DNA from: Candidatus Woesearchaeota archaeon
Lineage (GTDB): Archaea > Nanobdellota > Nanobdellia > Woesearchaeales > DSVV01
Length of the DNA stretch: 64,000 nucleotides
NCBI GenBank assembly: GCA_018661705.1
Contig: JABJHR010000013.1
Coordinates: 1 to 64,000, forward strand
Direction: 5' to 3'
Shown here: positions 1,696-51,828 of the stretch, one piece after another
Numbering within the stretch: position 1 is the stretch's first letter
How the letters are laid out: each line of letters starts with the position of its first letter
Translations under genes and position numbers: made by a program
Notes under the pieces: model-generated
What the model was told of the DNA's origin: nothing
The model's database searches: none
Seen by the model: the letters and a program-made list of their open reading frames with translations, nothing else

Positions 1696-4600
1696 ATGGA
1701 TCATGAATCAGAAACACTCAAGCACCCAAGTCCTAAAAAGGAAGTTTGTGGAGACTTTTGTTTAGTTGACGCAATGGAGGAATATAAAAAAGCCTTGTTT
1801 GTTGTATGTGATGGATTAAGTGGACATATGGATAGTTTTGCAAGTAAGTATGCTGCCCAAAAATTAGATGAAAGAATAAGACGAAGATTCTTTAACAAAG
1901 ATCAAACACCACTTCAAGAAATAATAAAAATTGAAATTGATAAAATTGATCAAGAATTAAAAGCAGAACATGCAGGAACAACATTAGAATTTGCATTGTT
2001 AGATCAGGAAACTAGAATCTTGCACACAGCCCATACAGGAGATTCCAGAATTTATTTAATTGAAGGTGGCATGCAAGAAAAACCTTTTGTTGACTCAGAA
2101 TTGATATTAAGAACAATAGATCAAGCACACGGAGATGCAGACAGGGGACCATCTAATTGTTTAGGAGAAGGTGCACCAACAAATGTATTATATGATCGTT
2201 TTGATTTAAATCAAATGGATGAAACAGTATTTATACTTATGTGTACTGATGGACTAACTGCTCACAAAGTAACACATAGAGAACTTGAGAAAACATTTCA
2301 AGATTATAGTATGAATCAAGAATTAAATATAATTACTGACCGCTATAAACATTTAACAAGATATCCTTTTGATATGATAGTTCAAGGATTGGAAGATGGT
2401 GGAATTACAAAGGGTTATTGGAGAAAAATATTAGCTCATTTTGAAGAGAGAGGTCATCCATTAAATAACGAAGATTATAATATGAGACGAGAATTAATTG
2501 CTCCGTTAATTCATGAAGATAATCCTGATAAATTAATATATAGAGCCTTATTTGCCGATGCATATGCAACAGCAATAAGAGGAGTTCACGATGACACCAC
2601 ATTTTTAGTAGCTGATCTTAAAGGGAGTAGACATTATTTTACTCAACAACAAGAGGAAATACTTGAAACAAGAAGTGCAGAACAAGAAGTCGCACATCAA
2701 CAAGAACTTCAAAGAATTAAAACACGAGGAAAAAGTGCAGGAAAAAGAAAAGATGAGAGAATCGGAACGTTAAATGAAGAATTACGTAGGACAAAAGCAG
2801 ACTTAAGAGCAAAAGAAACAGAGTTTTCAAGTGCATCAGAAACAATTTCTGGATTAGAAACACAAGTAAAAGATATTACAGGGGAAAGAGACACATTAAC
2901 TGAAGAAAGAGATACTTTAACTGGAGAAAGAGATACACTCCAAACACAATATGAAGAAGAACAAAGATTAAAAACAACTGCAGAAGGAGAAAGAGATGAA
3001 GAGAGAAGAATAAAAGAAGAGAAAAATGGGTTGTTGGGGGGAATTATTAAATTATTGGATATTCCAGACGCAATGTTAGAAACAGTCCAGGAATATGTTA
3101 CAGCAGTAAAAGCAGATAGAAAAACTCTTGGTGAATTAGGAGAGGAAAAAGCAAATCTTGAAGCAACAATTGAAACTATGACTCAAGAAGTAAAAGATGA
3201 GAAAGAAAGAAGAGATGTTTCAGATGAAAAAAGAGAGAAAGCATATACTGCACAAATAGGACAATTAACTACAAAATTAAGAGCAATTGTAACAGAGTAT
3301 AATAGAGTTGTTGGAATGTATAAAGAATTACAAGAGCAGCAGAAAACCATGATTCCAGTTACAGAAGTAGAGGAAATGTTTGGAGTGGTAACGAATACGT
3401 TACAAGAAAGTATAGAACGTTTTATTGATTCTTATAAAGTAGAAGCAGAAAAAGAAACAGGAAAAAGAATAGAACAAGAAGCAGGAATTGAAGAATATGA
3501 TGCCGAAGCAATTATTGCAGATGCAATTAAAGATTATGATCCTGGAGAAAGAGGCGTAGAAACAAGTGACGATGGAACTCCAAGAAGGGGAACTGGATAT
3601 CAACAAAAAACAAAAACTAGAAGATCAGATTCACCAGATAAAGGAATAACAGACGTTGCAGATTTAGATATAGAATATCTTCCAGAATCTAAAGTGCCAA
3701 ATCCTGCAAAAAAAGATATAACATCAGAACAAAATACTACAGAATTAAGTGGAAAAGGAGCAGCATCAGTAGCCTTACCAAAACCAGAGATGGTGGTTGA
3801 AGTTGATCCTGCAGATGTAAACTGGGCAAGAGAAGGAGAAAAAGAAAATTTAGAAGAAGCAACAGTTGATACTCTTGTGGAAACCCTTAATTCAAGAGAT
3901 GGTGGAAGTAAAAAACAAAAAGTTACAGAACCACAAATTCCTAAAGTTGATCCACCTAAAACAGATGCAACAAGTGTTACAGCAGGGGAACTTGCAACAA
4001 GAAATGGTGGAATGATAGGACAAGATAAAACACCACCGCCATTACCTCCTACAGCTCCAGAACCTGCTAAAGAAAGAACACTTAGTTCTTTAAAAGAGTT
4101 TATTGATTATTACAAAAGTAAAGAAGAAACAAAAGATATTCCCCATGATAAGATAAAAAGAGCCATTGTTACAGCACATTTGTTACATTTTGCTAGTTAT
4201 CATAAAAGATTTTCATATGATAAACCAGATAAAGAATTAAGAACATCTTTAGGTAAATTACATAAAAGACAAAATTCAAGGATTTATAATTTTTTTATTG
4301 GCAGAGATATTATGGAAGAGAAATCAAAAGAGAAAAAAACAATTTCTAAAAGTGAAAATAATGTATGTTTAAGTTACATTACAGATATGAATAATGCAAG
4401 GCAAACAGATTATGGTTTTAGTAGATTACAAGAGATTATTGGGAAAAATAGAACAAGAAGCTCAGAATTATCAGAAGAACTTAATGCCCCATATCATCAA
4501 GAAATTCATGCATATGCTAATGCAATTTTAATTTCGAAAAAAAATAAAAAAAAAGGGAGATGGGGGAAAAAAATATTATGGGGGACTGTAGCACTATTGG

Positions 4601-5844
4601 CAATTGCTGCAGGAGGATATGGTGTTCATTATGCAATAAATCATGAGACCGTTGTAGGTTCAGACCCTACAGCTCAATCTGAAAAAACAGATCTTTTCAA
4701 TGATAAATATCAAAAAGGAAACCAAAAATTAGATGAAGAAGAAAAGAAATTAGAAGAGAAGGAAAAAAAAGAAGAAGCTGCAAAAAAAGAAGCAAAAGAA
4801 AAAGCTGATAAAGATGTGGAAAAAGTAATTGAGGAAGAAAAGGTTAAAGAAGCAGAACTATTAAAGGCTAAAGAAGCAAAAGCTGAAAAAGCAGCATTAG
4901 CAAAAACTAAAAGATTAGAAGCACAAAAAGAAAAAGAAAGACTAGAAAAAGAGAAAAAAACAGCGATAAAAGTTAAATTAGCATCTGAAAAAGCAGCATT
5001 AGCAGCAAAAAAGAAAACAGATAAAGCAGCCGTGGCAGCTGCAAAAGCTAAATCTAAGAAAAAAGCAGCGAAAAAAATAGAAGATAGCAAAGTTGTCAAA
5101 ACAAGTGACGAACCAAGCGCAGAATACAAAAAACAGATGACAGATGCATATAAAAATGGCATTCAAAGTAGTGGAGAACAAGCAGGTGGTCTTGAAACAG
5201 CAGTTGAAACGGCAAAACCAGCTGAAGTTAAGAACGATGATCCTTATTTAATAGCATTAACGGCTGCAATTAATGGCACAGGCACTAAATATACAACATA
5301 TGCCCAAATTACAACAATATCAAATCAAGCAAAGTTAAAAGTTGTAAAAGCAACAAAATATCTCAAATCTCAAGGATATAAAATAATACCTGATGGGAAA
5401 ACATTTTATGCAGAAAAAAGTGGACAAAAAGTTACCTTTAAGGATTCTGGCGAAAACGTGGTGGTTAATGGGATATTGAAAGGAAATGTAGAAGGAAATT
5501 ACGCCGCATATATAGGGGATAATCGCCTTACAAAAGTGTTAGGAGGAATATTTTATTTAAAAAAGACTAGTGGAAATCTGTGGAAACTAATATGTAAAAA
5601 AAATAAAGAAACCAGTTGTAAGGATACATTAGAAGCTTATGATCTTACTGAAGATAACTTAGATTACACAATAAAATTGGCCATTAAGAATCAAGAGGCA
5701 AATTGTACAGAAGTTTTCAAAACAGGTTATATCCCTGTAAGTGAAAGTGACATATGTTCAAAATATGATAAAACATTAGGAGATAATATCAGAGCAGGTG
5801 TTGCTGTTGCAACAAGATTAATTCAAATAGTAAAAGGTAACTAA
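1696..5844 (+). CDS. Giant membrane-anchored PP2C-family protein phosphatase
   Basis: A PPM/PP2C Ser/Thr phosphatase fused to a long coiled coil and a membrane anchor. Residues about 20-305 carry the family motifs in order: CDGLSG (Asp39-Gly40), TGDSR (Asp116), CTDGL (Asp185) and DDTT (Asp299-Asp300). These are the metal ligands, so the enzyme should be active. Residues about 315-600 are Glu/Lys-rich coiled coil, followed by a low-complexity linker with a proline run near 780-790 and one hydrophobic segment at about 960-980. Beyond it lie an Ala/Lys/Glu-rich helical stalk (about 1000-1130) and a globular C-terminal domain. Basic residues before the segment suggest a cytoplasmic phosphatase and an outside tail. 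ATG 1696 follows an AGGAG site; the kinase gene starts 1 nt after the stop. Enzyme class is secure; topology and substrate are inference. Confidence 0.9.
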   Translation: MDHESETLKHPSPKKEVCGDFCLVDAMEEYKKALFVVCDGLSGHMDSFASKYAAQKLDERIRRRFFNKDQTPLQEIIKIEIDKIDQELKAEHAGTTLEFALLDQETRILHTAHTGDSRIYLIEGGMQEKPFVDSELILRTIDQAHGDADRGPSNCLGEGAPTNVLYDRFDLNQMDETVFILMCTDGLTAHKVTHRELEKTFQDYSMNQELNIITDRYKHLTRYPFDMIVQGLEDGGITKGYWRKILAHFEERGHPLNNEDYNMRRELIAPLIHEDNPDKLIYRALFADAYATAIRGVHDDTTFLVADLKGSRHYFTQQQEEILETRSAEQEVAHQQELQRIKTRGKSAGKRKDERIGTLNEELRRTKADLRAKETEFSSASETISGLETQVKDITGERDTLTEERDTLTGERDTLQTQYEEEQRLKTTAEGERDEERRIKEEKNGLLGGIIKLLDIPDAMLETVQEYVTAVKADRKTLGELGEEKANLEATIETMTQEVKDEKERRDVSDEKREKAYTAQIGQLTTKLRAIVTEYNRVVGMYKELQEQQKTMIPVTEVEEMFGVVTNTLQESIERFIDSYKVEAEKETGKRIEQEAGIEEYDAEAIIADAIKDYDPGERGVETSDDGTPRRGTGYQQKTKTRRSDSPDKGITDVADLDIEYLPESKVPNPAKKDITSEQNTTELSGKGAASVALPKPEMVVEVDPADVNWAREGEKENLEEATVDTLVETLNSRDGGSKKQKVTEPQIPKVDPPKTDATSVTAGELATRNGGMIGQDKTPPPLPPTAPEPAKERTLSSLKEFIDYYKSKEETKDIPHDKIKRAIVTAHLLHFASYHKRFSYDKPDKELRTSLGKLHKRQNSRIYNFFIGRDIMEEKSKEKKTISKSENNVCLSYITDMNNARQTDYGFSRLQEIIGKNRTRSSELSEELNAPYHQEIHAYANAILISKKNKKKGRWGKKILWGTVALLAIAAGGYGVHYAINHETVVGSDPTAQSEKTDLFNDKYQKGNQKLDEEEKKLEEKEKKEEAAKKEAKEKADKDVEKVIEEEKVKEAELLKAKEAKAEKAALAKTKRLEAQKEKERLEKEKKTAIKVKLASEKAALAAKKKTDKAAVAAAKAKSKKKAAKKIEDSKVVKTSDEPSAEYKKQMTDAYKNGIQSSGEQAGGLETAVETAKPAEVKNDDPYLIALTAAINGTGTKYTTYAQITTISNQAKLKVVKATKYLKSQGYKIIPDGKTFYAEKSGQKVTFKDSGENVVVNGILKGNVEGNYAAYIGDNRLTKVLGGIFYLKKTSGNLWKLICKKNKETSCKDTLEAYDLTEDNLDYTIKLAIKNQEANCTEVFKTGYIPVSESDICSKYDKTLGDNIRAGVAVATRLIQIVKGN

Positions 5845-5845
5845 T

Positions 5846-8800
5846 ATGACAATAGATAAATATGTGGATTTCATAAACCCAAACAAAACACCAGAAGAGA
5901 AAATCATTGAAATTGTCGATGGTAGAAAAACATACAAGTTTTCTAGAGAAAGCCATAGTACAAGAGGAATCAAAAAAGGACATTTTAGTAAAGTATATTT
6001 TGATGATAATTTGGAAGCATGTATTAAAGTTGGAATGGGTATTAGCTATGAAGTAGAAAGAAATGAAAGACATGTTCTAGAAAAATTATTAGAAAAAGGA
6101 ATAATTAGCCTCCCAGAAGGAAAGGATCGTAGAACAGGAGAATTTGATTATCCATTATTATTTATCCCAGAAAGACCAAAAGGAAAAAAAGATGAACACA
6201 TTGCCGTTATGAGAGATTTAGAAAGTGAAGGATGCGTATCTCTAAAAAAAGTTATGGAATTAGATCTTGCAGAAGGTGCAACACCAGAAGAAGAAAAGTT
6301 CAAATTTAAAGGAAAAGCACTTCCACTTGAACATGCTCTTGCAATTTATACAACATTATTAGGAAAGTTAAGTATTTTACATGATGACGCAGAATTAATT
6401 CATACAGATTTAAAAGCTGCAAATATTTTTGTACAATATGATAGATTAGAAAAGATTGTTCAAGATGGAGATCAAAGAAGATTTTTAGAATTAGATCATC
6501 TAAAAGATCTTAAAGTTATGGATTTTGGATTAGCAAGAGAAAGACACGAACGTTGTGAATTATTATTTAATCATGAAGTTGGTGCAATAAAAGATGCTAC
6601 TGGAGATTATTCGAGTAGTTACCAAGGAAGAAGATCAAGAGAAGTTGCATTACATAATTCAGAAATTTCCCCATTAGAATTAATGATGCTTGGTTCTAAA
6701 AATGAAAGTGCACAACCGTGGATTGACATATATGAAGCTTCAAATTTATTTGTATGGATGGTAACCGGAAGATCTGCATTTTATCTAGGGGCAAAACATA
6801 TTGAAAAATATAATGGTATATTATCTAAATGGGACATAAGTGATGAAGAAAATATTGAATTTATAAAAGAAAGCAGAAGAGAATTAGAAAGAAAAAGAGC
6901 AAAAGAAGCAAAAGAATTACTTTTAGATTGTTCAGAATGGATTCCAGAAGACATAGCAACTCAAGCAATGGGAAAAATAATAGAAAGTAAATTTGAAGAA
7001 TTTGTTAATATCATTCAAGACTCTTATTCACAGATTATTACTAGAGTTGTTGCAAGAGATGGTGCAAAACCAGAGGATGGAGAAATCATGAGTAAATTAT
7101 ATCCCATCATAGAAGCAACAACTATGCCTGATCCTAAAAAGAAAGAAAAAAATCAAGGATACCAATATAATGATGCAAAAGAGGTGTCAGGACTAATAGA
7201 AAAGATCATGTTGCAGCATCCTTCCACTTCAGACAATGACCTTGTTAGGAGAGAAGTTATTCAAGATCCAATTGTTAAAAGAAACTATTCAATTAGTTCA
7301 ATAGATGATCAAATTGTACCTGTTACTTTTTCAAAAAACCCTGAAATCAGTACTTCAATTAATGAAGGAGAAACTGCAATTTCAGCAGTTGAAATTTCTC
7401 AATTATCACAGTTACCATATGAGACTGAATCAACACATAAACTTGAGTTTAAGAGAACTTTTAAAGAACATTGGACTGAATTTAAAGCAAAATATAGTAA
7501 AATTGGAAGAGGAATTAGTTATATTTTAGGTGGAGCAGCATTATTAACAGCTCTTGCAGGAGGCATATATTTAGTTGCAAATAGTAAAGCATGTACAGAA
7601 GATGAAACAACAACAACAACTGAAAGTTATGTGATTCCTGATGCAACACCTCTAACACTTATTCAAGACACTGAAACAGTTATTAATGAACAAACACAAG
7701 ATATTATTTCCCAACCAGAAAATGAAGAAAAGGTAAGTAAAGGAAAAGAAGAAAATCCTACAACATCTCCTCTTTGGGAATCACCACAAGAGGGAGATAT
7801 GAGTATACTAAGTGGGTTTGGAGAAGACATTATAAGAAAGGGTTTTGTAAATGCAAGTCCAAAATTAGAAACTCTTCTAAAAGCTGAGAGTGCTCTTAAA
7901 AAAGATACAAAAAAATCAACAGGTGAAACTAAAATTTCTCCTCCCACTGAAGTAGTATTACCACAACCAAAACAACCATTAGAAGAAAAAGTTCAAGATA
8001 AATCAGAAAAACCAACAACTAGTATAAAAACATTAGATGGAAAACCATTGGTTACAGAAGAGAGTAAAAAACCATATAAAAAAGAAGTTAAGCCAAAAAA
8101 ACCAATAAAGAAAAAAGCACCAACTGTTTATGAATTAGTTTCTAAATCATATAACACTCATGTTTCAAAACCTGTTGAAATTAAACTTGCAGATTTAATT
8201 AGAGATAGTTGTGGATGCACAGATGTTAAATATTCAGATATTGATAGTATTTTAAAAGGGGTAGTTGAAGGACACGGGTTAACTGCAAAATACAGTGCGC
8301 GATGGGGAAAACTTACAATCACTCCTGAAAAAATAAATAAAAAACCATACCGAGGAAATACTAGTTTTACTCTCAAATTAAATAATGGTGTAACAAAGAA
8401 ATATACAGTTACCTTTTTTAATAATCCACCTGTACGAGGAGAAAAAGCAGAAGATTTAGTATTAGTGGGTGAAGAAGAAAAAGAGATGAAAATAAATCTT
8501 CAGGATTATTTTACAGATCCAGATGGAAAACCAACTGCATATAAAATCATAGGGGAGTTACAAGGAGAAGGAGAAAATAATGCTAAAGGAATAATTGCTA
8601 CACCAGTTATTAGCGGCAAATATTTAGTTATAACAGCTGAAGGAAAAGATCGACACACCATGGGTAAAAATGGACCCGTTGATCAAAGAGCAGTATTAAA
8701 AATAGTTGCCCTAGACGAAAATTTCCAAACAGATGAAAATGAAGGAGCAGTTACACTTTCAATAAGTGTTGAAGACAGAAATGATTGTCCACAACTTGCT

Positions 8801-9478
8801 AGAAGTATTGATGATGTCCTTTATATTCCCGTAGGAACAACTGTTGAAATAGGTGGTGAAGGAAATAAATCAAAACCTCTATTTAAAGATAAAGATCTTG
8901 GTGGAAAACAATTTAGAGTAACTTCAGATAATGATGATGTAAAGGTATTTGGAAAACCTGGTGGAAAGACGGTGATAAAACAAGGAAGTCTACCAACAGA
9001 CACAGTAATCCCAATTACATTATATGCACAAGATAAGCAAGAAGATTATAAAGAAGATGAAAAATGTCAAGATGAAGAAGGGAATATGATTCCTTTCAAA
9101 GCACCACAAACAACAATAAATGTATTTTATCATGGTGAAAGATCTCTTAAGTTAGGCGGGAAAAGTTTAAAATATCAAGTAAATGGTGCATCTAAAGGAT
9201 ATGCAACCGCAATAACAATAAATAGTGAAGCAATAGCTGCACTTGAAAGTAGAATTAATGCGGACCATGCAAATATAGAGGGGAAATTAGTATTTGATGC
9301 GTCTGGAAAATGTATTGCCACTAGTTTTTGTTATAAGCAAGAAAATGGGGTTTGTAATGATGAACATTATAGCGTTGGTGACCTTCAAACATTCCTAGCA
9401 AAAGAACATATAAAAATTGCCGAAGGAGATATGATAAAAAAAGGTCCAATTAGAATAGATATTAATGGGATTAAGTAA
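5846..9478 (+). CDS. Giant membrane-anchored Ser/Thr protein kinase with cadherin-like ectodomain
   Basis: Residues about 35-340 form a Hanks-type kinase: a Gly-poor nucleotide loop near 43-50, the catalytic Lys in CIKVG (Lys61), the catalytic loop HTDLKAAN (His186-Asp188-Asn193) and the metal-binding DFG (226-228). All key residues are present, so it should be active. A linker leads to one hydrophobic segment at about 557-578. The ~630-residue remainder has a Thr/Glu/Lys/Pro-rich stalk and then modules containing DYFTDPDGKP and NDCPQ...IPVG motifs typical of cadherin-like/Ig-like domains, with a few Cys. The architecture resembles bacterial receptor kinases such as PknB. It is translationally coupled to the PP2C gene (1-nt gap), so the two probably act on the same substrates in opposite directions. 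Ligand and substrates are unknown. Confidence 0.92.
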   Translation: MTIDKYVDFINPNKTPEEKIIEIVDGRKTYKFSRESHSTRGIKKGHFSKVYFDDNLEACIKVGMGISYEVERNERHVLEKLLEKGIISLPEGKDRRTGEFDYPLLFIPERPKGKKDEHIAVMRDLESEGCVSLKKVMELDLAEGATPEEEKFKFKGKALPLEHALAIYTTLLGKLSILHDDAELIHTDLKAANIFVQYDRLEKIVQDGDQRRFLELDHLKDLKVMDFGLARERHERCELLFNHEVGAIKDATGDYSSSYQGRRSREVALHNSEISPLELMMLGSKNESAQPWIDIYEASNLFVWMVTGRSAFYLGAKHIEKYNGILSKWDISDEENIEFIKESRRELERKRAKEAKELLLDCSEWIPEDIATQAMGKIIESKFEEFVNIIQDSYSQIITRVVARDGAKPEDGEIMSKLYPIIEATTMPDPKKKEKNQGYQYNDAKEVSGLIEKIMLQHPSTSDNDLVRREVIQDPIVKRNYSISSIDDQIVPVTFSKNPEISTSINEGETAISAVEISQLSQLPYETESTHKLEFKRTFKEHWTEFKAKYSKIGRGISYILGGAALLTALAGGIYLVANSKACTEDETTTTTESYVIPDATPLTLIQDTETVINEQTQDIISQPENEEKVSKGKEENPTTSPLWESPQEGDMSILSGFGEDIIRKGFVNASPKLETLLKAESALKKDTKKSTGETKISPPTEVVLPQPKQPLEEKVQDKSEKPTTSIKTLDGKPLVTEESKKPYKKEVKPKKPIKKKAPTVYELVSKSYNTHVSKPVEIKLADLIRDSCGCTDVKYSDIDSILKGVVEGHGLTAKYSARWGKLTITPEKINKKPYRGNTSFTLKLNNGVTKKYTVTFFNNPPVRGEKAEDLVLVGEEEKEMKINLQDYFTDPDGKPTAYKIIGELQGEGENNAKGIIATPVISGKYLVITAEGKDRHTMGKNGPVDQRAVLKIVALDENFQTDENEGAVTLSISVEDRNDCPQLARSIDDVLYIPVGTTVEIGGEGNKSKPLFKDKDLGGKQFRVTSDNDDVKVFGKPGGKTVIKQGSLPTDTVIPITLYAQDKQEDYKEDEKCQDEEGNMIPFKAPQTTINVFYHGERSLKLGGKSLKYQVNGASKGYATAITINSEAIAALESRINADHANIEGKLVFDASGKCIATSFCYKQENGVCNDEHYSVGDLQTFLAKEHIKIAEGDMIKKGPIRIDINGIK

Positions 9479-9544: not shown

Positions 9545-10933
9545 TTAATATTCTAATTTAAGTGTTGTTAAGAAACCATAAAAAGGTATTTGATCATATT
9601 TAGGAAGAAACTCATTTCCTTCAAGATTTCCTTCAGACATTCCTACAGCCATAACAAAACTAGGCTTCAGATAAATGTTTAAATCATCTGCAGATCTGAT
9701 TTGTACTTTTAGTGGCATCCCAACATCCATAATAACACTATTTTCTCTGTTAAAAAAACCATGAATATTTGAATCTGCTTTTGGCCCATGATAATACTGG
9801 CCACCAAGTGAAACTCCTAAGAGATCAAATTCCGCACCCTTTACATGAATTCTTCCAGGAGAAAAAAAGGAACTTATCTCTGCTCTTATACCAATCCCTT
9901 CTGTTTTATTCTCTACAAGATTATAATCAAATAAAAGTTCAGCCCGATAACTAAAATCTAATATCTGATCATTATCAAACAGATTTCCACTAATTTCATC
10001 CCCATAAAGTTTAAATCGCATGCTAAGTATATCTGTGAAGTTATGATCATTAATAAAATCTAATAAAAAAGTAAATCCAATTGGTACTGTTCTAAATACT
10101 CCTCTTGCTTCAAGTCCAGCACCGACAGTAAATTGATATGAAGAAAAATCTTCATTGCCAGACATGCCGGCAATCATTACAGGGTTTAATTGATTAACAA
10201 AAGGTAAACCCATTTTTATTGATAAGTCATACTCTGGAAAGGCTCTGAGTTGATTATTAATATCTCCTGAATTTGCAATCATTCGTTGATATTGTAATGT
10301 TGGATTAACAATTAATTTAGGATTAACTTTTTTAATTTTAAGTTTTACTTCTTTTGATGCAGTTTTATCAACAGGAAATCTTGAAACCACTTCTCCTTCT
10401 TTGTTTTTCAATAAATATGCAATTTTGAATATATTTTCACCATAACCATGGTTTCTTGGCTCAATTTTCACAAGATATAGATCTGAACCATTTAACCCTT
10501 TCTTATCACGTATAATAGTAACACCCTTAACATCAGTAACTTTTTTATCTAGATGCAAAGAAAAATTCTCATCATCACATACCTTAACAGTAACATTCGA
10601 ATGACAATAACCTGGATTATTTCTTTGATCCACATTAACGCATTTAGTTGCATTAAGAATTTTGGGTCTACAATACCTTTCACGTGCATTTGCTGTTGAT
10701 GGTGAAAACAAAAGTGAATATCCTAAAATAGCTGCACCAATTGTAGTTACGGTTGCAATTGCTGCTTTTTTTGCAATAGTTCCAGCATTTCTTCCTAAAG
10801 ATGAAAATGCAGAAGTGAGTTTAGAATAAAGATTATCAGATCTTTTAGTAGAACTTGTGTCAGCATCCATACCAGAATCTATAGAACCATTCGCAAGAAT
10901 TTTATTATCATTTAATACGTTTTCTAGGTTCAT
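9545..10933 (-). CDS. Exported protein with predicted beta-barrel C-terminal domain
   Basis: No family is recognised. A Ser/Thr-rich cytosolic start is followed by a hydrophobic segment (about residues 52-74) ending in an AxA-type cleavage site (STANA|RER). Residues about 85-220 contain several Cys and look like a small globular domain. From about 235 to the end, alternating hydrophobic/polar strands with aromatic belts (GVSLGGQYYHG, GFLTTLKLEY) recur, and the chain ends in an aromatic residue, as in bacterial outer-membrane barrels. It lies convergent to the kinase gene and has its own TATA-like sequence upstream. A barrel in an archaeon would be unusual, so the fold is inference; a beta-sandwich surface protein is the alternative. 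Confidence 0.75.
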   Translation of the reverse strand: MNLENVLNDNKILANGSIDSGMDADTSSTKRSDNLYSKLTSAFSSLGRNAGTIAKKAAIATVTTIGAAILGYSLLFSPSTANARERYCRPKILNATKCVNVDQRNNPGYCHSNVTVKVCDDENFSLHLDKKVTDVKGVTIIRDKKGLNGSDLYLVKIEPRNHGYGENIFKIAYLLKNKEGEVVSRFPVDKTASKEVKLKIKKVNPKLIVNPTLQYQRMIANSGDINNQLRAFPEYDLSIKMGLPFVNQLNPVMIAGMSGNEDFSSYQFTVGAGLEARGVFRTVPIGFTFLLDFINDHNFTDILSMRFKLYGDEISGNLFDNDQILDFSYRAELLFDYNLVENKTEGIGIRAEISSFFSPGRIHVKGAEFDLLGVSLGGQYYHGPKADSNIHGFFNRENSVIMDVGMPLKVQIRSADDLNIYLKPSFVMAVGMSEGNLEGNEFLPKYDQIPFYGFLTTLKLEY

Positions 10934-11073
10934 CTTATTATAATAAAGTAATATAGATCTATTTATATATCTTTCTATTTGTCATCCCTTCAGAGTAGAG
11001 ATGGCCTGTGTTTGAACTAAAAAAACAAAAAAAGTTCTAAAATAAAAAAACAAAATGAGATCATAAAGCAGGA

Positions 11074-11150
11074 ACTCAGTGGTCTTTGGCAGAGAGATGC
11101 TTAGCTTTGCTTAGATGATTTGCTTACTAAGATTTATCTAACCACTGAGT
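11074..11150 (-). terminator. Inverted repeat at the 3' end of the ATPase operon
   Basis: A perfect 10-bp inverted repeat (ACTCAGTGGT at 11074-11083, ACCACTGAGT at 11141-11150) encloses 57 nt and overlaps the last codons of the upstream gene. It would fold in the transcript end of the minus-strand operon; A/T-rich tracts follow. A terminator or 3'-end stability role is inferred. Confidence 0.5.
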
Positions 11151-12780
11151 CTGCTGTTTTTAAAAAGTTTCCAACATAGTTGGTGATTGGATTGTCTGAA
11201 GTAAATGTTCCAAACTTTGTTTCTGCATTATTTCTTAAATATGCAACTGCACTTTGAATAAATCCTTTTTCTTTATGTGTAAAGTCACCATTTAATTCAA
11301 AGGCATCAATTTTCTCTGCCATATTTTCTCCACTACCTAAAAAAGGAACGCCTTCATGTGTTTTACCATGTAAAAGATTATACAATGGTCTTAATTTTGA
11401 AGTAGTTGGTTTAGAAAGATCTTCTAAACTAACATAATCTGTTGCAAGATTATGTTCCGCACTATAATCAACAGAAACTGCAGGAGGCATTGTAGCATCA
11501 ACAATATCTTTTGTGATAACTGTATCTCCCACTCCTTGTTTAATTACTTGTGTATCAACAGAAACATCTACCACATTTGCATCTTCAATTACTTCCTCAA
11601 TCACAACACCAACTGCACCATATTGCATTTGAGAAATAGTTTCTAATTTATTAGAAACTAAATTAAAAAGTGCATGATAAGTTGCAACTTCCTTTCCAAA
11701 AAAAACCATATCTTTTAAATGTGGACGTCTGTTTAAGTAATTGTTATAAGATTTTAACTCATCAAAACTTGATTCTGTTACTCCTGATTCTTCAATTGAA
11801 TCACAAGCCATTATTACATCTAAAAAGCCTGATGCATCTTCCAAATATGAAATCTCTTCCCTTAATTTATTTCTTTGGTTAAAATATCTAGAACCTGCAG
11901 AAGCAACTTTTTCCATTTCCTGATAAAGTTCATTAGTTTCAGGAGTTAATGCTTGTTCTAAAAATTTTAATTTTTGTTTTTTTGATGCTTTTACTGGAAA
12001 ATTAGATAAATCTAAATGAACAGGCGGTAATTCATTACCTAAGATAAATGCTAAACCATTTGCCTTGAATTCATCCATTAAATTTCCAACTTCCTGAACA
12101 GATCCAGCGTTTTGATACTTTTCTAAAACTTTTTCTGGCTTTGCATTAGCAATATTATGAGCAGCCCTAGCATAAGCAACAATAAATGCATTTGGTGAAA
12201 CTTCATCAACAACATCATGCAAAAAATCTGCATTAATTGCATTTAATACACCATACATATTTGAAGCCAAAGTAGAAAGCTCTTCAACAACCATTAAAGT
12301 CTCTGCAGTAGAAGTTTTCTTTTTTTGTTTAGCTAATGTTGATATTAAATCTGTTAATTTACCAACAGAGGTAGTTAAATAATTTTTAGTTTTACTTGTT
12401 AATGAAGACGTCATTAAAAATAATCTCTCTTCAAATTCTTGTGCATCATCGGTTGAAATTGGGTCTCTTTCATCAATCAAACTTAAATATGTTGTTAAAT
12501 CTTCATTATAACCAACAACAGAAGTTTGAATCTCTTGAAATTTATTTAAAATATCTCCAACAAACTGTGCTCTTGCAATTTTCTCTAAGTCTTTAGTCAT
12601 CCCAGTAGAACATACAAGCATTTCTTTAAGACTTTTTCTTGAAGCTCCTTCTGCTAAAAGCGACTCAACAATATTATCTTCTGCATCAACATCATCTGTT
12701 CCAAGCATTGTTGGTATTAATGCTGATTTCATCATCTGTTCTCCCACCATATGTTCATCTACCATATATTCATCTGCCAT
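11134..12780 (-). CDS. Predicted all-helical protein of an ATPase operon, unknown function
   Basis: No known domain is recognised. The N-terminus is Met/acid-rich with short imperfect repeats (EYMVDEHMVGEQMM); the rest is predicted mostly alpha-helical with no membrane segment and one Cys-containing segment near residue 57. The start is supported by a GGTGAGGTG site about 6 nt upstream of ATG 12780. The preceding ATPase stop is only 3 nt away and the ribosome site lies inside that gene's last codons, so the two are translationally linked. An adaptor or substrate of the two ATPases is a reasonable guess from context only. Confidence 0.8.
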   Translation of the reverse strand: MADEYMVDEHMVGEQMMKSALIPTMLGTDDVDAEDNIVESLLAEGASRKSLKEMLVCSTGMTKDLEKIARAQFVGDILNKFQEIQTSVVGYNEDLTTYLSLIDERDPISTDDAQEFEERLFLMTSSLTSKTKNYLTTSVGKLTDLISTLAKQKKKTSTAETLMVVEELSTLASNMYGVLNAINADFLHDVVDEVSPNAFIVAYARAAHNIANAKPEKVLEKYQNAGSVQEVGNLMDEFKANGLAFILGNELPPVHLDLSNFPVKASKKQKLKFLEQALTPETNELYQEMEKVASAGSRYFNQRNKLREEISYLEDASGFLDVIMACDSIEESGVTESSFDELKSYNNYLNRRPHLKDMVFFGKEVATYHALFNLVSNKLETISQMQYGAVGVVIEEVIEDANVVDVSVDTQVIKQGVGDTVITKDIVDATMPPAVSVDYSAEHNLATDYVSLEDLSKPTTSKLRPLYNLLHGKTHEGVPFLGSGENMAEKIDAFELNGDFTHKEKGFIQSAVAYLRNNAETKFGTFTSDNPITNYVGNFLKTADSVVR

Positions 12781-12783: not shown

Positions 12784-14733
12784 TTACACCTCACCGCCAG
12801 GTTTGTTTATTATTCTTTTTTTTTGAGTATGATCTTGAGCAGTTAAAACAGGATTACCAGAAACTGGAGATCCTGTTTCAATATTTGAAACAGAAGAATT
12901 CATCATAGCTATTTCTTGACTACATCTTTGATACCATTCATCCCTAACACCAGGATAACTTCTTTTCATGTATTCATCAGCACTTGCTAATGCATCTTCC
13001 CAATTAACTTCAATTGATGATGCAGGTTCTCTTAACAAAGTATAATCTGGATTTTTTGTTCCTTTCTTTTTCAAATACCTTAAACCTTCAAGAGTTGATA
13101 AACTCTCTTTAACAACATCTGTTTTATCGTAAAATCCTCTTTTTTCTAATCTTCCTAATAAGTCTTCTCCAGATAATTTGGAGTCACCATCAAATGCATT
13201 TATAACTAACCGATCTATGACTGAAATCCCCATAATATTATCATAAAACATTTGTCCATAAAGTTCATTAATATGCATATTATCAAAAACACTTGAAAAG
13301 AGATTATGACCTTGTTGAGATGATAATTCTTGTTTTGATCTCGCAAAATGATGATAAATAGTAGAACCATCAACTAATTTTTTATAATGCTTAATAAAAG
13401 ATCTTACTCTTACTGAAGAAACTAATTCCTTTGGAACAAGACTTGTAACATAAGGATAAAAGGGATTTCTTACATCAAAGTTTTGTGCTAATGCTTCTTT
13501 GACATGTCCTTTTAACAATTCAGAAATTTGTGATTTTTCTTTAGAAGCAAAACTACTTTCTGCAAAACTCTTAATAACACGTTCATTTTGTTCTGCACTA
13601 ATATCAGTATGAAAAACAATAAATCTTCTACTTAATTCAGGATCTTTTTTCTTAAAATAATCATTAGTTATTGCAAGAGTATAATAAACTGTTTTTCCTG
13701 CTGAAATTCTAAAGTCATCAACACCATCTTTTGCATTATTAGTTCTACTATAATCAGAACTTTTACCTTCTGTAAGATTCTTTATTATTTCTTTAAAAGT
13801 ATGTCCAGTAACTTTCTGAAGCTCTGTAATTACCCAATAATTATAATCATTAATTTTAGTATTATTGAATAAAGCTTTGTCAGATGTTTGTTGAAGTACT
13901 AATAATTCTTCCTGAGGAAATAATTCTAAAAAAGGATCCATAATTGCAGTCTTACCTGCGCCACTTAAACTTTCAATACCAACATGAGCTTTTGCTAACA
14001 AAGAATAAACCAATAGTTTCCTTAACTTGTATTCGCCAACTAAACCTTGCTCATCAAAATATTGATCAATATGTTCTGGAAGAAATGCATCTCTTCCTAA
14101 AGTAGTAATTACTTTAGTTGCAACATCTAAATTAGGTTCTTGAACAATAGTTGTTAAATCAGGATTAAAAATTTCAGATTCTTCAACATTAGAAACCGGC
14201 GTTTGTTTTGTTGCTTGTCCTTTTACATGACTATCTAAAACATCTGCTAAAGTTCTAACGGCACAATCTAAACATTCTTTTTTTACATACTCTGTCCCTA
14301 TACCAGGTGGAGTTGAGGCTGTTTGTGTTGAAGCTACACCTTGTGCAACATTTTCGTTTGGTTGTGCTACTGTACGTTCTCTTTGCGCAGAAGTTTCATA
14401 AGCACTAGCACCATTAGGGTCTGTTATTTCATCAAGACCATTATTAATTGCATTATCTAATGCATTACTTCCTGCTTGCATTAAATGTGAGGGAATTGCA
14501 CTACCACAAAATGCTGCTTTTACTAATGCATATTTCTCCTCATTACCAATATAAAATCTAACTCGTTGTTTTTTCCATTGTGCTTCGGCATCTAAAACTT
14601 TGACTAATGCTTCCTTAGAAAAAGTTCTATAAACAAGTCCGCCGTCTGAATGAATTTCTGCAATTGCCCTCTTCAAAATAGACATATCCTTGCCATATCT
14701 TACTAATTCCACAATTGCTCTGTCGTCATCCAT
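12784..14733 (-). CDS. P-loop ATPase with degenerate Walker A motif
   Basis: Around residue 264 (from ATG 14733, ~261) is the P-loop SLSGAGKTA, in which the first Gly of the usual GxxxxGKT is Ser. About 55 residues later comes a Walker B-like strand WVITELQK, then a sensor-like LAITND and a paired-Arg segment ELSRRF that fits an arginine finger. This order resembles AAA ATPases found with CHC2-type primases; that likeness is my inference. The N-terminal ~230 residues are of unknown type, with a CxxC-like pair in ECLDCAVR. ATG 14733 with AAGG 9-12 nt upstream is preferred over an upstream TTG at 14742. It sits between the AAA+ gene (6-15 nt gap) and the helical protein gene in one operon. Confidence 0.8.
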   Translation of the reverse strand: MDDDRAIVELVRYGKDMSILKRAIAEIHSDGGLVYRTFSKEALVKVLDAEAQWKKQRVRFYIGNEEKYALVKAAFCGSAIPSHLMQAGSNALDNAINNGLDEITDPNGASAYETSAQRERTVAQPNENVAQGVASTQTASTPPGIGTEYVKKECLDCAVRTLADVLDSHVKGQATKQTPVSNVEESEIFNPDLTTIVQEPNLDVATKVITTLGRDAFLPEHIDQYFDEQGLVGEYKLRKLLVYSLLAKAHVGIESLSGAGKTAIMDPFLELFPQEELLVLQQTSDKALFNNTKINDYNYWVITELQKVTGHTFKEIIKNLTEGKSSDYSRTNNAKDGVDDFRISAGKTVYYTLAITNDYFKKKDPELSRRFIVFHTDISAEQNERVIKSFAESSFASKEKSQISELLKGHVKEALAQNFDVRNPFYPYVTSLVPKELVSSVRVRSFIKHYKKLVDGSTIYHHFARSKQELSSQQGHNLFSSVFDNMHINELYGQMFYDNIMGISVIDRLVINAFDGDSKLSGEDLLGRLEKRGFYDKTDVVKESLSTLEGLRYLKKKGTKNPDYTLLREPASSIEVNWEDALASADEYMKRSYPGVRDEWYQRCSQEIAMMNSSVSNIETGSPVSGNPVLTAQDHTQKKRIINKPGGEV

Positions 14734-14748
14734 TTTCTTCAACCTTAA

Positions 14749-16338
14749 TTAAACTGCTGTGCGTGTTTGAGTAGATGGTTTTGATGTTGTTGCCCCATCA
14801 GTAGCTTGTTCCCCTAACAAACGAGAATATTTTTGGGGATCATCTTCCATTTGTACACTAAAATCATAGGTCAAAAGTTTATTACAAACATCAGCAGTTG
14901 TAATCCTTTGTTTTATTCCAAGGTCTATATTTGCTTCAAACCTCTCTAAAAGACAATCATATAGAACATTGTCAATTACTCTTCCTGAGCTATACTCTTG
15001 TCCAGTACGAGTAATTGCTAAAATGGGGTCTGCATCAATCTGATCAAAGATTTGTCCACCAAATCTTTTATCCTTAATTTCAGTTGAAGCATAAGATTCA
15101 ATCTTATTAATAATTGCTTGGTATATACCAACAACCCCTTCATCTGTTTTTGGATATCCTACTTCTAAAACTTTGAAACGTTGATTATTTGCAATAGCTG
15201 GATCCATAGATGATTTCTTATTTGTAGAACCAATTGTAATTATTGGGACTCCCAAATAATCCTGAAGACAACCATTCAGTGTCGTAACAACTTTATTGTC
15301 ATCTCTTTCTCCACCCTGAGGATTACTAGATCTTTTCATTGCAATTTGATCAATTTCATCAAAATAAATAATTGCACCCTTTACTTCAGATGCTAAAACA
15401 GCATTTTTAGCGCCTTCATAAAGATCAATAATTTTTTGTGAGGATTCATTATTAAACTTTGAAACAAGGTCACCACATTTTACATCATAAAATAAAAAAC
15501 CAGTCATATGTTGTAACATCCTTGCAAGAGTAGTTTTACCAGTGCCAGGTGGACCATTTAACAAAAGATTTTTAATTACTTTTCTTTGAGGAGCAAGTTG
15601 TAAATATTCTTGAAGATGGTTCATTCTCCTAACAACTCTTTGAAGCTCTGCTTTCACGTCTTCATGCCCGGAAATAAATTCATAATCATTTTGAACCTTT
15701 TGTCCGTTTGCATCAGGAGTTGCCACACCTGATGTTTGATATTTAGAAACATCAACTGTACTTGCCCTACTTTTCTTTTCTTGTTTATGTTCTTGAAATG
15801 TTAAAGGAATATTTTTTCCATTAACTGTAATACTTTTGGTCCCATTTACTTTTCCAAGAACACTTCGATAACTATTCTCAATTGCACTTAATGATTCTCT
15901 CATTGTCCAATCAAAAAATGCATCTGTTACTGATTCAAGTGGAACTGACTTTGATTTAGAAACAGCATCTGAATATAAGTCAAGTAATGTATCTTCAATT
16001 TTAAAAAAATCATCTCCAAATTTTAGTTTATCAGTTGCGAATCCATCAAAAGTTACATTCCCACCATAATCTAATAATTCTGAACTATATTTAGCTGCAA
16101 CATAATTGGAAAAAACAGTTGCTTCTGATGAATTCATACTACCTTTTCTAATTTTGTCATAAACTGCATGTTGTACAACAAAAAAAGACGTAATTGCATC
16201 TGAAACTCCACTTGGATTTTCAGTTCTACTTGAACGTTTAATTCTAGATTCAAGATCTGGTGCCCTAGCCCTAATCTTTCTTCCAATAGGGATACCAGCG
16301 TTAGATATATCTCTGCCAGTTATTTCTAAGCTGCTCAT
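14749..16338 (-). CDS. AAA+ ATPase of the CDC48/FtsH/Vps4-like classic clade
   Basis: A single AAA+ module occupies about residues 225-460. It has Walker A GPPGTGKTT (Lys268), Walker B IIYFDEID (Asp327-Glu328), sensor-1 ITIGSTNK and a pore-loop-like hydrophobic segment after helix 2. These are hallmarks of classic AAA unfoldases. The N-terminal ~220 residues match no adaptor domain I know and are mostly helical. The C-terminus is Thr/Ser-rich. The start at 16338 is preceded by a strong AGGAGGA site. With only one ATPase ring it would probably work as a hexamer that remodels or unfolds a partner. Neighbouring genes (coiled coil upstream, second ATPase downstream) are likely partners. The ATPase call is secure, the target unknown. 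Confidence 0.92.
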   Translation of the reverse strand: MSSLEITGRDISNAGIPIGRKIRARAPDLESRIKRSSRTENPSGVSDAITSFFVVQHAVYDKIRKGSMNSSEATVFSNYVAAKYSSELLDYGGNVTFDGFATDKLKFGDDFFKIEDTLLDLYSDAVSKSKSVPLESVTDAFFDWTMRESLSAIENSYRSVLGKVNGTKSITVNGKNIPLTFQEHKQEKKSRASTVDVSKYQTSGVATPDANGQKVQNDYEFISGHEDVKAELQRVVRRMNHLQEYLQLAPQRKVIKNLLLNGPPGTGKTTLARMLQHMTGFLFYDVKCGDLVSKFNNESSQKIIDLYEGAKNAVLASEVKGAIIYFDEIDQIAMKRSSNPQGGERDDNKVVTTLNGCLQDYLGVPIITIGSTNKKSSMDPAIANNQRFKVLEVGYPKTDEGVVGIYQAIINKIESYASTEIKDKRFGGQIFDQIDADPILAITRTGQEYSSGRVIDNVLYDCLLERFEANIDLGIKQRITTADVCNKLLTYDFSVQMEDDPQKYSRLLGEQATDGATTSKPSTQTRTAV

Positions 16339-16427: not shown

Positions 16428-17594
16428 TTAATGTTGTTTTGAAGGACTAACTGATGCTGCCGCATAAGATGTGTCTGCAAAAGGGTCTAGATCATCCTTT
16501 TCAATCACTTTCCTCATTTGGTCATCAAACTCATTATTTTGTTTCAATCTTTCTTGTGCATTTTTTGACATGTATGCACTTGGAGATGAGTCATCAGTGT
16601 CAAGACCCAAACCAGGTTGTTCACCTAAACCAGAACCTCTGACTTGGTCTTTAATTCCATTAATCTGAGTTAGTTTGTCGGTGTAAACTTTTGCTGAATC
16701 TTTTGCAGTTTCCGCATTTCCTTCATGTCTCATTGCACGATCAATATATTCAATTGGATTATCTGTTATCGCTCCTGCTTTAACTTCTAATCCTGCATAT
16801 TCTCTTCTTTTACCATCTAGATCACTTTCGTCCTCCATTACTTTTCCAGCATATTCTTTTATTCTGCTTTTGTAAATAATGAATTGTTGCTGTGCTAGAT
16901 TATATTTTCCTTTAAATACACTAACGCTTGTCATTACTTTTGTTAATTCATCTATTTTTTCAAGATTTCCAGAAGTTACTTCTGCTTGAATGTTATCTTT
17001 TTGATCGTTTAAATCTTCTAATCTATCATTAGCAACATCCATTGCAGCTCTTGCTCTCATCTTTTTCTTAATGTAACCATTTTGTTGTGTTAAATTTCCA
17101 AGATAACTTTTTTCTAACTCAACAATGTCTGTTCTAACTTGAGCAATTTGTTCTTTAAGTTCTTGTGCTTCTAGATTTAAAACTTCATCTGGAGAAACTT
17201 TAACAACTTCTTCTGTTCTCCCAAGCAATGAATTAATCCCACTCTTAATTCCGTTTGCAACATAACCAAGCAAACCTTTTTGCCCTTCTTGTATTGGTTC
17301 TATACCTAAGATTCTTGCAACTTCTTCTTTTCCAGTTTCAAGAACTTTTTGCCTTTCTATAGGTGTTAATGCTGCTTTCTCGTCTGCTAAAAGATCTTCT
17401 AATTGTCTTTCTGCTTCTTGATTATTCATTTCTCTTTCAGCTGCAGTTTCAATTCCTGCTGGCGTTGGTGCAGGCCTTGCTGGTGTTTGAATTGTTGCCC
17501 CAGTTGTTCCTGTAGAATATTCACTCCCATTACCTGCTCCTGTTTCAATTGTTTGTAGACCTGGTTCAGGTCCTGGTTGTACTCCATCTTCCAT
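16428..17594 (-). CDS. Coiled-coil protein, operon partner of AAA+ ATPases
   Basis: The N-terminal ~60 residues are rich in Gly, Thr, Pro and Ala and look disordered. Residues about 60-300 are long amphipathic helices with heptad character (LNLEAQELKEQIAQVRTD region), and the C-terminus is acidic. There is no membrane segment and no known domain. ATG 17594 is chosen over a TTG at 17609 because GGAGGT lies 7 nt upstream of that ATG. It is the second gene of the operon that starts at 18364, directly upstream of the AAA+ gene. A structural filament or an ATPase adaptor is plausible from shape only. Confidence 0.8.
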   Translation of the reverse strand: MEDGVQPGPEPGLQTIETGAGNGSEYSTGTTGATIQTPARPAPTPAGIETAAEREMNNQEAERQLEDLLADEKAALTPIERQKVLETGKEEVARILGIEPIQEGQKGLLGYVANGIKSGINSLLGRTEEVVKVSPDEVLNLEAQELKEQIAQVRTDIVELEKSYLGNLTQQNGYIKKKMRARAAMDVANDRLEDLNDQKDNIQAEVTSGNLEKIDELTKVMTSVSVFKGKYNLAQQQFIIYKSRIKEYAGKVMEDESDLDGKRREYAGLEVKAGAITDNPIEYIDRAMRHEGNAETAKDSAKVYTDKLTQINGIKDQVRGSGLGEQPGLGLDTDDSSPSAYMSKNAQERLKQNNEFDDQMRKVIEKDDLDPFADTSYAAASVSPSKQH

Positions 17595-17686
17595 TTTGTT
17601 TACCTCCAAACTTTGATTGTTTGTTTTTGTTTTTGTTTTGTTTTTACTTAAAATAAATTTACCCTTGTTGTCTTGTCAATCTTGTT

Positions 17687-18364
17687 TTATTGATAATTAC
17701 CAAACAAACTTGATGTTGTTTCTTTCATCAATGAAACTAAATCTTCTTGTTGTGGTGCAACTTTATTTGGCGTTACACTTTCTTGAGAATATTTTTGTGC
17801 ATCTTTGTTTTCTTCTGCTAAACCTGTTTGCATTGGAAATGGCAAAGGTTGTGCAGAATAAGTTCTTTGACCCATAAAGTCATTATTTAAAACAACTTGA
17901 TCAATGTTTGTTGAATCTGAAAGAACTAATGCTCTTGCGCCATTAATTACTGTTGGTTCACATTTTGTAACTAAAGGATCAGCAGTTCCTGCTTCAACAT
18001 CATACTTAGCAAGTTCTTCTTGTTTTTTTTCTTCTTTCATTCCACTAAGAGTATTACAAAATCCTGCAACACCTTCAACATAATCTGTGTTTTCACTTTG
18101 TGCAGATTGAAATTCATTTTCTAAAACACCTGGGTTTGATCTAATATATGTGTCTGTTAAACCCAAAACATAACTTGCGTTTGCCGGTGATAATTCAATT
18201 TGTTCTACAATTGCTGTTGGTTGTTTTGTTTCAGCCACATTATTATTTCCTGGAACAACTCCTGTAAAATACAAAGCAGCACCAAGAGCCGCTGTTGCAA
18301 CAGCACCCATAACAAAATATAAACCATTTTCTTTTGCTCTTTTACCTAATTTTTCAAAAACCAT
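17687..18364 (-). CDS. Membrane-anchored protein, first gene of the ATPase operon
   Basis: A short basic N-terminus (VFEKLGKRAKENG) is followed by one hydrophobic segment at residues about 16-37, then ~185 residues that would lie outside the membrane and contain two Cys (GFCNTL and TKCEPT). The Gln/Glu/Ala-rich tail looks disordered. No family is recognised. GGGGAGGT lies upstream of ATG 18364. It is the promoter-proximal gene of the minus-strand cluster and shares its promoter type with the 24080 operon. It could be the membrane base for the cytosolic ATPases; that is inference from gene order. Confidence 0.8.
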   Translation of the reverse strand: MVFEKLGKRAKENGLYFVMGAVATAALGAALYFTGVVPGNNNVAETKQPTAIVEQIELSPANASYVLGLTDTYIRSNPGVLENEFQSAQSENTDYVEGVAGFCNTLSGMKEEKKQEELAKYDVEAGTADPLVTKCEPTVINGARALVLSDSTNIDQVVLNNDFMGQRTYSAQPLPFPMQTGLAEENKDAQKYSQESVTPNKVAPQQEDLVSLMKETTSSLFGNYQ

Positions 18365-18879: not shown

Positions 18880-19599
18880 ATGCATGAAAAAATATTAGAA
18901 GATTTAGGATTCAGTAAGAACGAAGCTAAATCTTATCTTGCACTTCTTGAATTAGGATCTGCAACTGCTGGACAAATTGCTGAAAAATCTAAAGTACATA
19001 GAACAAATGTTTATGATGCAGTTGAAAGAATGTATGAAAGAGGAGTTGTTTCTTATAGAACAGTTTCAAATGTGAAATATTTCCAAGCATCACCGCCACA
19101 AAGTTTGTTTAGACTGTTAAAAGAAAAAGAAGAAAGATTAAGTAATGTATTACCCGAACTTCTATTAAAATTAGAAATGTCTGAAAATAAAAGTGAAGCA
19201 CATATTTTTCAAGGATTAAAGGCATTATTTGATATTTTATATCACTTTCTTAGTTATAAAGATGACATTAGAGTTTATGGCATTCCAAAAAGTGTGCCAG
19301 AAATTGTAAGAACCTACATACCTCATTTTCATAAAAAAAGAATCCCTTTGAAAGTTAATATGTTGCATATATATAATCACGATGCTACAGAAAGAATTAA
19401 ATTACTTAAAAAAATGGAATTCACTGAAGCAAAAAGTTTACCTGAGAAATTTGATTCAAATGTTTCTACTTTTGTATGTGGAGATGAAGTAGTCTTAACA
19501 TCATGGGGGCCACCAATAATTTCAACACAAATAATCAATAAAACACTTGCAGAATCCTATAAAAGATATTTTGAAATTCTATGGAAAGAAGCAAAGTAG
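18880..19599 (+). CDS. TrmB-family transcriptional regulator
   Basis: The N-terminal ~70 residues are a TrmB winged helix (LGFSKNEAKSYLALLELG, then helix-turn-helix SKVHRTNVYDAVERM). A short coiled coil follows (about 85-110), then a C-terminal PLD-like/TrmB sensor fold (EAHIFQGLKALFDIL onward). TrmB proteins sense sugars or other small molecules and act as repressors or activators. Length (239 aa) is normal. Two other TrmB genes (29949 and 50865) share its domain order. It lies divergent to the ATPase operon, so control of that operon is possible but unproven. Confidence 0.93.
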   Translation: MHEKILEDLGFSKNEAKSYLALLELGSATAGQIAEKSKVHRTNVYDAVERMYERGVVSYRTVSNVKYFQASPPQSLFRLLKEKEERLSNVLPELLLKLEMSENKSEAHIFQGLKALFDILYHFLSYKDDIRVYGIPKSVPEIVRTYIPHFHKKRIPLKVNMLHIYNHDATERIKLLKKMEFTEAKSLPEKFDSNVSTFVCGDEVVLTSWGPPIISTQIINKTLAESYKRYFEILWKEAK

Positions 19600-51608: not shown

Positions 51609-51640
51609 ATTAATCAGTCCGTGGTTAGTAGTTAGTGGTA

Positions 51641-51653
51641 TGTAGTTACTACA
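51641..51653. promoter_or_regulatory. Palindrome TGTAGT-T-ACTACA, candidate TrmB operator
   Basis: Perfect 6-bp arms 33 nt upstream of the TrmB start; TACT/AGTA half-sites are typical of TrmB operators. Confidence 0.5.
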
Positions 51654-51684
51654 AACACCATTATTTATATAGTTTTCTAATATT

Positions 51685-51700
51685 GGTGGTACATACCACC
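51685..51700. promoter_or_regulatory. Palindrome GGTGGTA-CA-TACCACC, candidate operator
   Basis: Perfect 7-bp arms between the TATA-like elements of the divergent genes at 51608 and 51829. Confidence 0.5.
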
Positions 51701-51828
51701 CCAAAAGTTTATATGGTTTGAGGCTAGTTAGTATTGTAAAGGAGTAACAAAGCAAAGAAGGAAGTTACTGCTTAGAAAGTTCTTGTAAGCTAGATAATGC
51801 TAGCGAGAGCTGTAAGGAGGTAAACAAA

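Follow-up and report, generated by a model that had tools for sequence, protein, structure and literature searches.

We analysed a window of 64,000 nucleotides, positions 1 to 64,000 of contig JABJHR010000013.1 from a Candidatus Woesearchaeota archaeon (assembly GCA_018661705.1; 1,654,130 bases in 19 contigs, 92.8% complete). An earlier reading made from the sequence alone (the sequence-only reading) had placed a predicted exported β-barrel protein beside a kinase at positions 9545 to 10933, and the open reading frame (ORF) is found exactly there, on the minus strand. The features of this locus, of a second locus in the same window and of related genes from other genomes of the order are listed in Table 1.

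Table 1 Positions of the barrel gene, its parts and neighbours, and of other barrel-like genes (window positions unless a locus is named)
Feature	Position	Strand	Basis or remark
Exported β-barrel protein (main finding)	9545..10933	-	462-aa ORF, ATG start; relatives
Long N-region, residues 1-57, ahead of hydrophobic core	10763..10933	-	Translation
Hydrophobic core and AxA signal-peptidase-like site, residues 58-83	10685..10762	-	Hydropathy, alignment
β-Rich N-terminal domain, residues 84-205, with C88, C98, C110, C119	10319..10684	-	Alignment, low-confidence model
Predicted 12-strand transmembrane β-barrel, residues 206-462 (257 aa, to the last residue)	9548..10318	-	Models, structural matches, alternation
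Last strand, residues 453-462, β-signal-like C terminus ending in Tyr	9548..9577	-	C-terminus test; model strand 451-461
TATA-box-like sequence 25 nt before the barrel ATG	10959..10970	-	Inferred from sequence alone
Transmembrane Ser/Thr-kinase-like protein with outer repeat domains	5846..9478	+	Pfam; convergent to barrel gene
PP2C-type phosphatase-like N terminus, coiled coil, membrane span	1696..5844	+	2j82 match
Coiled-coil protein adjoining phosphatase gene	434..1693	+	No family match; module membership not shown
548-aa module protein directly upstream of barrel gene	11134..12780	-	Relatives
652-aa module protein, ATPase-like	12784..14742	-	P-loop read from sequence; relatives
AAA+ ATPase of module	14749..16338	-	PF00004, E 1.3e-22
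393-aa coiled-coil module protein	16428..17609	-	Relatives
225-aa membrane-anchored module protein	17687..18364	-	Relatives
TrmB-family regulator, divergent from module	18880..19599	+	PF01978, E 9.1e-18
TrmB-family regulator, divergent from second barrel-like gene	50865..51755	-	PF01978, E 5.4e-16
Second exported barrel-like protein, 260 aa, ends VGFRANF	51829..52611	+	C-terminus test, family profile
Exported PF13557-passing proteins	L042:1471-2229, L044:1228-2043, L046:1471-2277		Three genomes of the order

The hydropathy profile of the 462-aa protein contains one hydrophobic stretch, with its peak centred on residues 61–72, and the long region ahead of it is common to all four aligned family sequences. 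After the peak comes Ala-Asn-Ala at residues 81–83 (positions 10685–10693). An AxA-type signal cleavage site had been proposed, and the aligned sequences support the site: they read ANA, AEA, AEA, and VEA, i.e., AxA in three and VxA in the fourth; cleavage itself has not been demonstrated. Residues 84–205 form a lysine-rich domain whose four cysteines are invariant in three of the four sequences in the alignment, and whose strands are drawn by the low-confidence model of the window protein. The TATA-box-like sequence upstream suggests, on the letters alone, that the barrel gene may have its own promoter and a near-leaderless transcript. It could be argued that the signal is not cleaved and that the N-terminal helix tethers the barrel outside a single cytoplasmic membrane, where it would insert into that membrane or into a surface layer. 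The 57-residue region before the core is unusually long and resembles that of a type II anchor, and a second membrane is not known, but an AxA-type site lies immediately after the core in all four sequences, and single-chain barrels of such a kind are known from outer membranes. We regard a tethered barrel as improbable.

A protein search of 99 genomes, including that of the window, detected two full-length relatives (genomes G005 and G008) in the same family as the window genome, and a full-length 477-aa protein from G001 came to light when 352 genomes of the order were searched with a profile. With the profile redrawn to include the G001 sequence, only G000 and G001 were matched among 371 genomes of the phylum. 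The barrel gene is carried by 4 of 11 genomes of this Woesearchaeota family, the window genome included, and the relatives are 22 to 29% identical to the window protein. No credible relative was detected outside the family among the 352 genomes searched with the profile. A hit in G069 was rejected since it lies on the opposite strand of another gene; hits in G251 and G061 were rejected since both map to the region of a conserved 238–240-aa gene, which we take to be that of ribosomal protein S3Ae; and a hit in G203 was dropped as chance (one stop, 34 positions, E 0.0097). The protein has no family match in Pfam (E up to 10, all four members), NCBIfam, or PHROG, and no relative among PDB sequences, the best (E 0.56) being a chance match. 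No relative was found in phage records, and 28 pattern matches in viral contigs yielded none.

Barrel-type strands were assessed in residues 206–462 by comparing the alternation of the sequence with that of shuffled versions. The alternating strands that had been read from the sequence are borne out: every one of 1000 shuffles scored lower than the window protein (z 3.6), which also ranked first of 40 window ORFs (z 3.56; the next was 2.38), and the same domain in the three relatives gave z of 3.1, 2.2, and 3.6. Composition is barrel-like in all four sequences, with 3.4 to 5.9% lysine, 9.3 to 11.9% glycine, and 13.2 to 14.9% Phe, Tyr, and Trp, in contrast to the outer part of the neighbouring kinase, with 9.7 to 14.0% lysine and 6.2% aromatic residues. 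A C-terminal aromatic residue, likewise claimed, is only partly a family trait, since Tyr is the last residue in the window protein and its G001 relative but Leu takes its place in the other two. The alternating hydrophobic pattern at positions −1, −3, −5, −7, and −9 is satisfied at four or five of the five places in all four sequences, and of the 45 window ORFs that reach 150 aa, only two have a β-signal-like end of this sort, 9545–10933 and 51829–52611. When three of the sequences were compared with the fourth over the 12 strands of the better model, the parity of the more hydrophobic face agreed in 36 of 36 cases, with no coordinates available to assign that face to the inside or the outside. 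This agreement is supportive rather than decisive, because aligned relatives tend to agree.

Two AlphaFold2 models were made. The first, of the window protein aligned with two relatives, is of low confidence (pLDDT 42.8, pTM 0.39, 302 of 462 residues below 50) and has 12 to 13 long strands between residues 212 and 461 in its C-terminal half, the last spanning 451–461. The second, of the barrel domain of the relative from JAGVYH010000004.1, which is 29% identical to that of the window protein, contains 12 strands that fill the domain to the last residue but one (pLDDT 67.4, pTM 0.63), and four of the five models from that run had a pLDDT of 59 to 67. In the relative's model the strands, even in number, run up and down and close into a barrel, and the window model agrees with it in outline, at low confidence. 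The models are not fully independent, because they rest on the same three sequences.

Structural matches were sought with Foldseek and VIA-align, and both tools gave bacterial outer-membrane barrels; for VIA-align, the stated typical best Z of models without a clear match is 7 to 8. The window model matched best, over residues 205–462, the COG4313 outer-membrane channel 4rl8 (Z 17.0, 213 aligned, rmsd 3.3), and the relative's domain model matched best the porin 8xua (Z 14.6, 186 aligned, rmsd 3.6). All 50 of the best 50 matches for each model are outer-membrane or designed transmembrane barrels, as judged from their titles or from what is known of the proteins. Foldseek with the relative's domain model likewise gave such barrels for 49 of its best 50 matches, the remaining one being 9j9n, an artificial metalloprotein whose title does not say whether it is a barrel. 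The top matches of a fold search in viral structures were phage-borne proteins, either outer-membrane-like or uncharacterised. The structure-search tool cautions that low-confidence models can mislead. Structure prediction had been named as a check on the sequence-only reading, and a confident non-barrel model as its refutation; both models are barrels, neither a sandwich nor a propeller, and no such refuting model appeared, although the window protein's own model is of low confidence.

An artefact is made less likely by the agreement of two sequences on a barrel, its even strand number, a C terminus that lies inside the last strand, and the outcome of the sequence tests, although both models draw on the same three sequences. 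Taken by itself, the assignment of the C-terminal domain as a membrane β-barrel is one that we hold with good confidence. The C-terminal half might instead be a soluble or surface-layer β-fold, from whose alternating strands models built on shallow alignments drew a barrel. Soluble β-proteins also show alternation, the pLDDT of the window model is low, the alignments contain three sequences, and no outer membrane is known in an archaeon of this kind. A hydrophobic core could not, however, fill a closed barrel as wide as one of 12 strands, so that a single hydrophobic face should point outward; low lysine, high glycine and aromatic content, a C terminus that ends in the last strand, and another exported family of the order that reaches the PF13557 cut-off (described below) also speak for the membrane barrel. 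A soluble fold is in our view unlikely.

The neighbouring gene at 5846–9478 had been called a kinase; it does match Pkinase (E 1e-6), although at 28.8 bits it falls just below the curated cut-off of 31.7. The barrel gene is convergent to the kinase-like gene in all four carrier genomes; the contig of G001 holds only the outer part of the kinase-like protein. In the phosphatase-like protein, residues 28–190 match 2j82 (E 8.8e-5), and Pfam gives no match for it. On the other side of the barrel gene, the order of the genes for the 548-aa, 652-aa, AAA+, coiled-coil, and 225-aa proteins is kept in G005 and G008, with the coiled-coil protein of G005 placed by its likeness to that of G001. Relatives of the 548-aa protein occupy the same place in G005 and G008 and lie on another contig in G001, and the 652-aa protein has a PHROG match (E 3.8e-9) of unknown function. 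Of the 11 family genomes, the four that carry the barrel also have near full-length matches to the AAA+ protein, of at least 184 bits; in the others, matches are confined to the AAA region and do not exceed 66 bits, or are absent at the limit applied. The TrmB protein next to the module is 70 to 72% identical in the other three carrier genomes. In G001, a genome of the same genus, the AAA+ module lies beside the same TrmB gene, and the module and the barrel-kinase pair are on different contigs (loci L015 and L036), so the two halves can separate. The shared neighbourhood and co-occurrence link the barrel and the kinase to the AAA+ module but do not reveal their functions. Farther along the window, 24430–25704 (minus strand) encodes a protein that resembles a transglutaminase only weakly (E 0.0027, below cut-off); near the module in G005 lies a relative of it, 66% identical over the C-terminal part.

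Bacterial outer membranes, mitochondria, and plastids are the known sites of membrane β-barrels, which are inserted there by Omp85-type proteins. A search for BamA-like genes had been suggested as a further check, and it gave no BamA or Omp85 match in any of the four carriers; of 14 control genomes, it matched 8, 7 of them over the cut-off. Across the order, 2 of 336 genomes were matched, neither credibly. The match in G196, over the cut-off, lies in a 136-aa frame close to the end of a contig (L047:1489-1842), with unknown bases nearby; an Omp85-like C-terminal fragment is neighboured there by a truncated RNase-Z-like ORF, and the stretch is likely a chimeric assembly. The match in G157 falls short of the cut-off and overlaps with a 522-aa surface-type protein that contains repeats and is not an Omp85. 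TamB was absent from all 18 genomes with at least one barrel family; the controls of both the Omp85 and the TamB search gave matches in diderm bacteria.

Outer-membrane barrels are bacterial traits, and bacterial contamination of the assembled genome could in principle have supplied the gene. The G196 match, a contig-end fragment fused to an unrelated ORF, appears to be a case of that kind. The same neighbourhood nevertheless recurs in separately assembled genomes, a TrmB gene stands beside the barrel locus, and a member of the second barrel-like family sits on a 1.0-Mb contig (G074). We find contamination barely credible.

The second barrel-like protein of the window belongs to a family whose profile matches 18 of 277 genomes of the order, from 12 families. 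Among its 19 ORFs, 16 end in Phe, Leu, or Ile, and 14 in Asn followed by one of these. A divergent TrmB-family gene is present within the fetched stretch at 14 of the 19 loci; the TrmB profile used for this count was built partly from the same loci, and Pfam independently confirms TrmB at nine loci of barrel-like genes. The second family and its kin show moderate alternation, with z of at least 2 in 15 of 22. The curated PF13557 cut-off is passed by one member of the second family (L042) and by two further proteins (L044 and L046). Such matches occur in 3 of 336 genomes of the order, and the 14 control genomes have none. PF13557 is an outer-membrane channel family, and 4rl8 bears its name in the PDB. 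Profile comparison of the second family with the PF13557 group gave a probability of 68.5% (E 4.6e-5, single pair), and from this likeness of sequence they are probably related. The PF13557-group profile reaches the solved channel 4rl8 only at E 0.0082, and a single group member used as a query found nothing. A common origin of the main barrel with the other barrel families was not found (profile comparison probabilities 0.3% and 0.4%).

Two other genes touch on the second family. A paralogue on contig C1 of the window genome (L043:1492-2358) is 49% identical to the 51829–52611 protein over its first 51 residues and different in the rest, so that the two share a common export segment on different mature proteins; with an alternation z of −0.2, we do not call L043 a barrel. 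Upstream of the second barrel-like gene, 49112–50161 (plus strand) encodes a DUF3810 protein (E 3.2e-29) of unknown function.

The sequence-only reading had stated that archaea of this type have no known outer membrane. That agrees with the open-access PMC literature searched, in which no report of an outer membrane in Woesearchaeota was found, but it does not extend to archaea at large: two-membrane envelopes have been described in Ignicoccus, ARMAN, SM1, and Methanomassiliicoccus (PMC4243693). For a barrel relative in DPANN, the same literature gave only one sentence, on a possible distant relative of the PopA superfamily in Altiarchaeales (PMC12228718); reports elsewhere are not excluded. 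A paper on an outer-membrane barrel database names archaea only in a reference title (PMC9581022), passages of a review of archaeal cell biology do not mention barrels (PMC7613921), and neither do passages of a DPANN review, in which the word itself was not looked for (PMC6349945).

Our preferred reading is of an integral outer-membrane-type barrel that is exported, resides in the archaeon's own outer membrane, is sensed by the kinase, and is served by the AAA+ module; we give this full statement a probability of about 0.5. The protein would cross the cytoplasmic membrane by the Sec route and be cleaved after Ala83, as inferred from the conserved AxA-type signal. Its C-terminal half is predicted by both models to close into a 12-strand barrel, and the alternation and the width of the barrel suggest a hydrophobic face toward lipid and a polar lumen, with the four-cysteine domain placed, by inference, in the space between the membranes. 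The remaining steps are drawn from neighbourhood and co-occurrence: the most likely place for the barrel is an outer lipid membrane belonging to the archaeon, where it would serve as a channel or an anchor; its state may be sensed by the convergent receptor-like kinase together with the PP2C-type protein; and its export or assembly may be served by the AAA+ module. We favour a real outer membrane over a one-off, because the order holds further exported barrel-like families (18 of 277 genomes for the second family and 3 of 336 for PF13557).

The main rival to residence in the archaeon's own membrane is that the barrel is released and serves as an attachment or a leak pore in the membrane of a host or a partner; insertion into such a membrane had been suggested by the sequence-only reading. 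If the partner were a diderm bacterium, its BamA could take up the β-signal-like C terminus, explaining the missing insertase. The lack of Omp85 in all four carriers would fit, as would the β-signal-like end in all four proteins and the narrow, fast-diverging family (22 to 29% identity), and there is a precedent in the porin-like PopA of Bdellovibrio, whose transfer into prey is discussed in PMC12228718. Yet the barrel gene is grouped with the cell's own sensor kinase and phosphatase, the TrmB-linked second family (18 of 277) resembles regulated uptake rather than attack, and no partner is known for this genome. We consider insertion into a partner cell rather unlikely, without setting it aside.

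Extending the preferred reading, we propose only tentatively that some Woesearchaeota have a true outer membrane with several bacterial-type barrel families and an insertion mechanism other than Omp85, in which the main barrel would be a signalling-linked channel and the TrmB-linked family regulated nutrient channels. Outer-membrane barrels of this type and two-membrane archaea were already known; what we regard as new is that archaea with no detectable insertase have a barrel family of the outer-membrane type. If this is true, DPANN archaea either have an overlooked outer membrane with its own route of insertion or place barrels in the membranes of other cells. The finding bears on the envelope of uncultivated Woesearchaeota, on the contact between DPANN archaea and their partners, and on the need of Omp85 for barrel insertion, and the barrel protein is open to direct expression and testing.

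Among known systems, the outer-membrane pore protein of Ignicoccus hospitalis reportedly forms a pore in an archaeal outer membrane; it is small and is not known to be of the bacterial barrel type. Proteins of the PopA superfamily are also outer-membrane barrels, but they have 16 strands and are oligomeric, whereas the main barrel is modelled with 12 strands. The autotransporters EspP, NalP, and BrkA, as well as FapF, have an N-terminal domain followed by a C-terminal barrel, and their β-domains match the window model with Z of 14.3 to 16.1; the autotransporter Pfam profile has no match to the main barrel at E up to 10, and, unlike the autotransporters, the low-confidence window model has no pore-spanning helix before the barrel. 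The oligogalacturonate porins KdgM and VhGalP, and NanC, are small barrels that match the window model (Z 15.3 to 16.8) and the relative's model (13.3 to 14.6), but they are bacterial, single-domain proteins, and no sequence similarity to the main barrel was found. The COG4313 channel (PF13557, Phenol_MetA_deg; 4rl8) differs from the main barrel, which has an additional N-terminal cysteine domain and an archaeal host without detectable Omp85, and the PF13557 profile does not match the main barrel at E up to 10 (profile comparison with A6, probability 0.4%). It nevertheless has the same fold, being the best match of the window model (Z 17.0) and the second match of the relative's model (Z 14.3), and is likewise an exported 12-strand barrel whose C terminus lies in the last strand.
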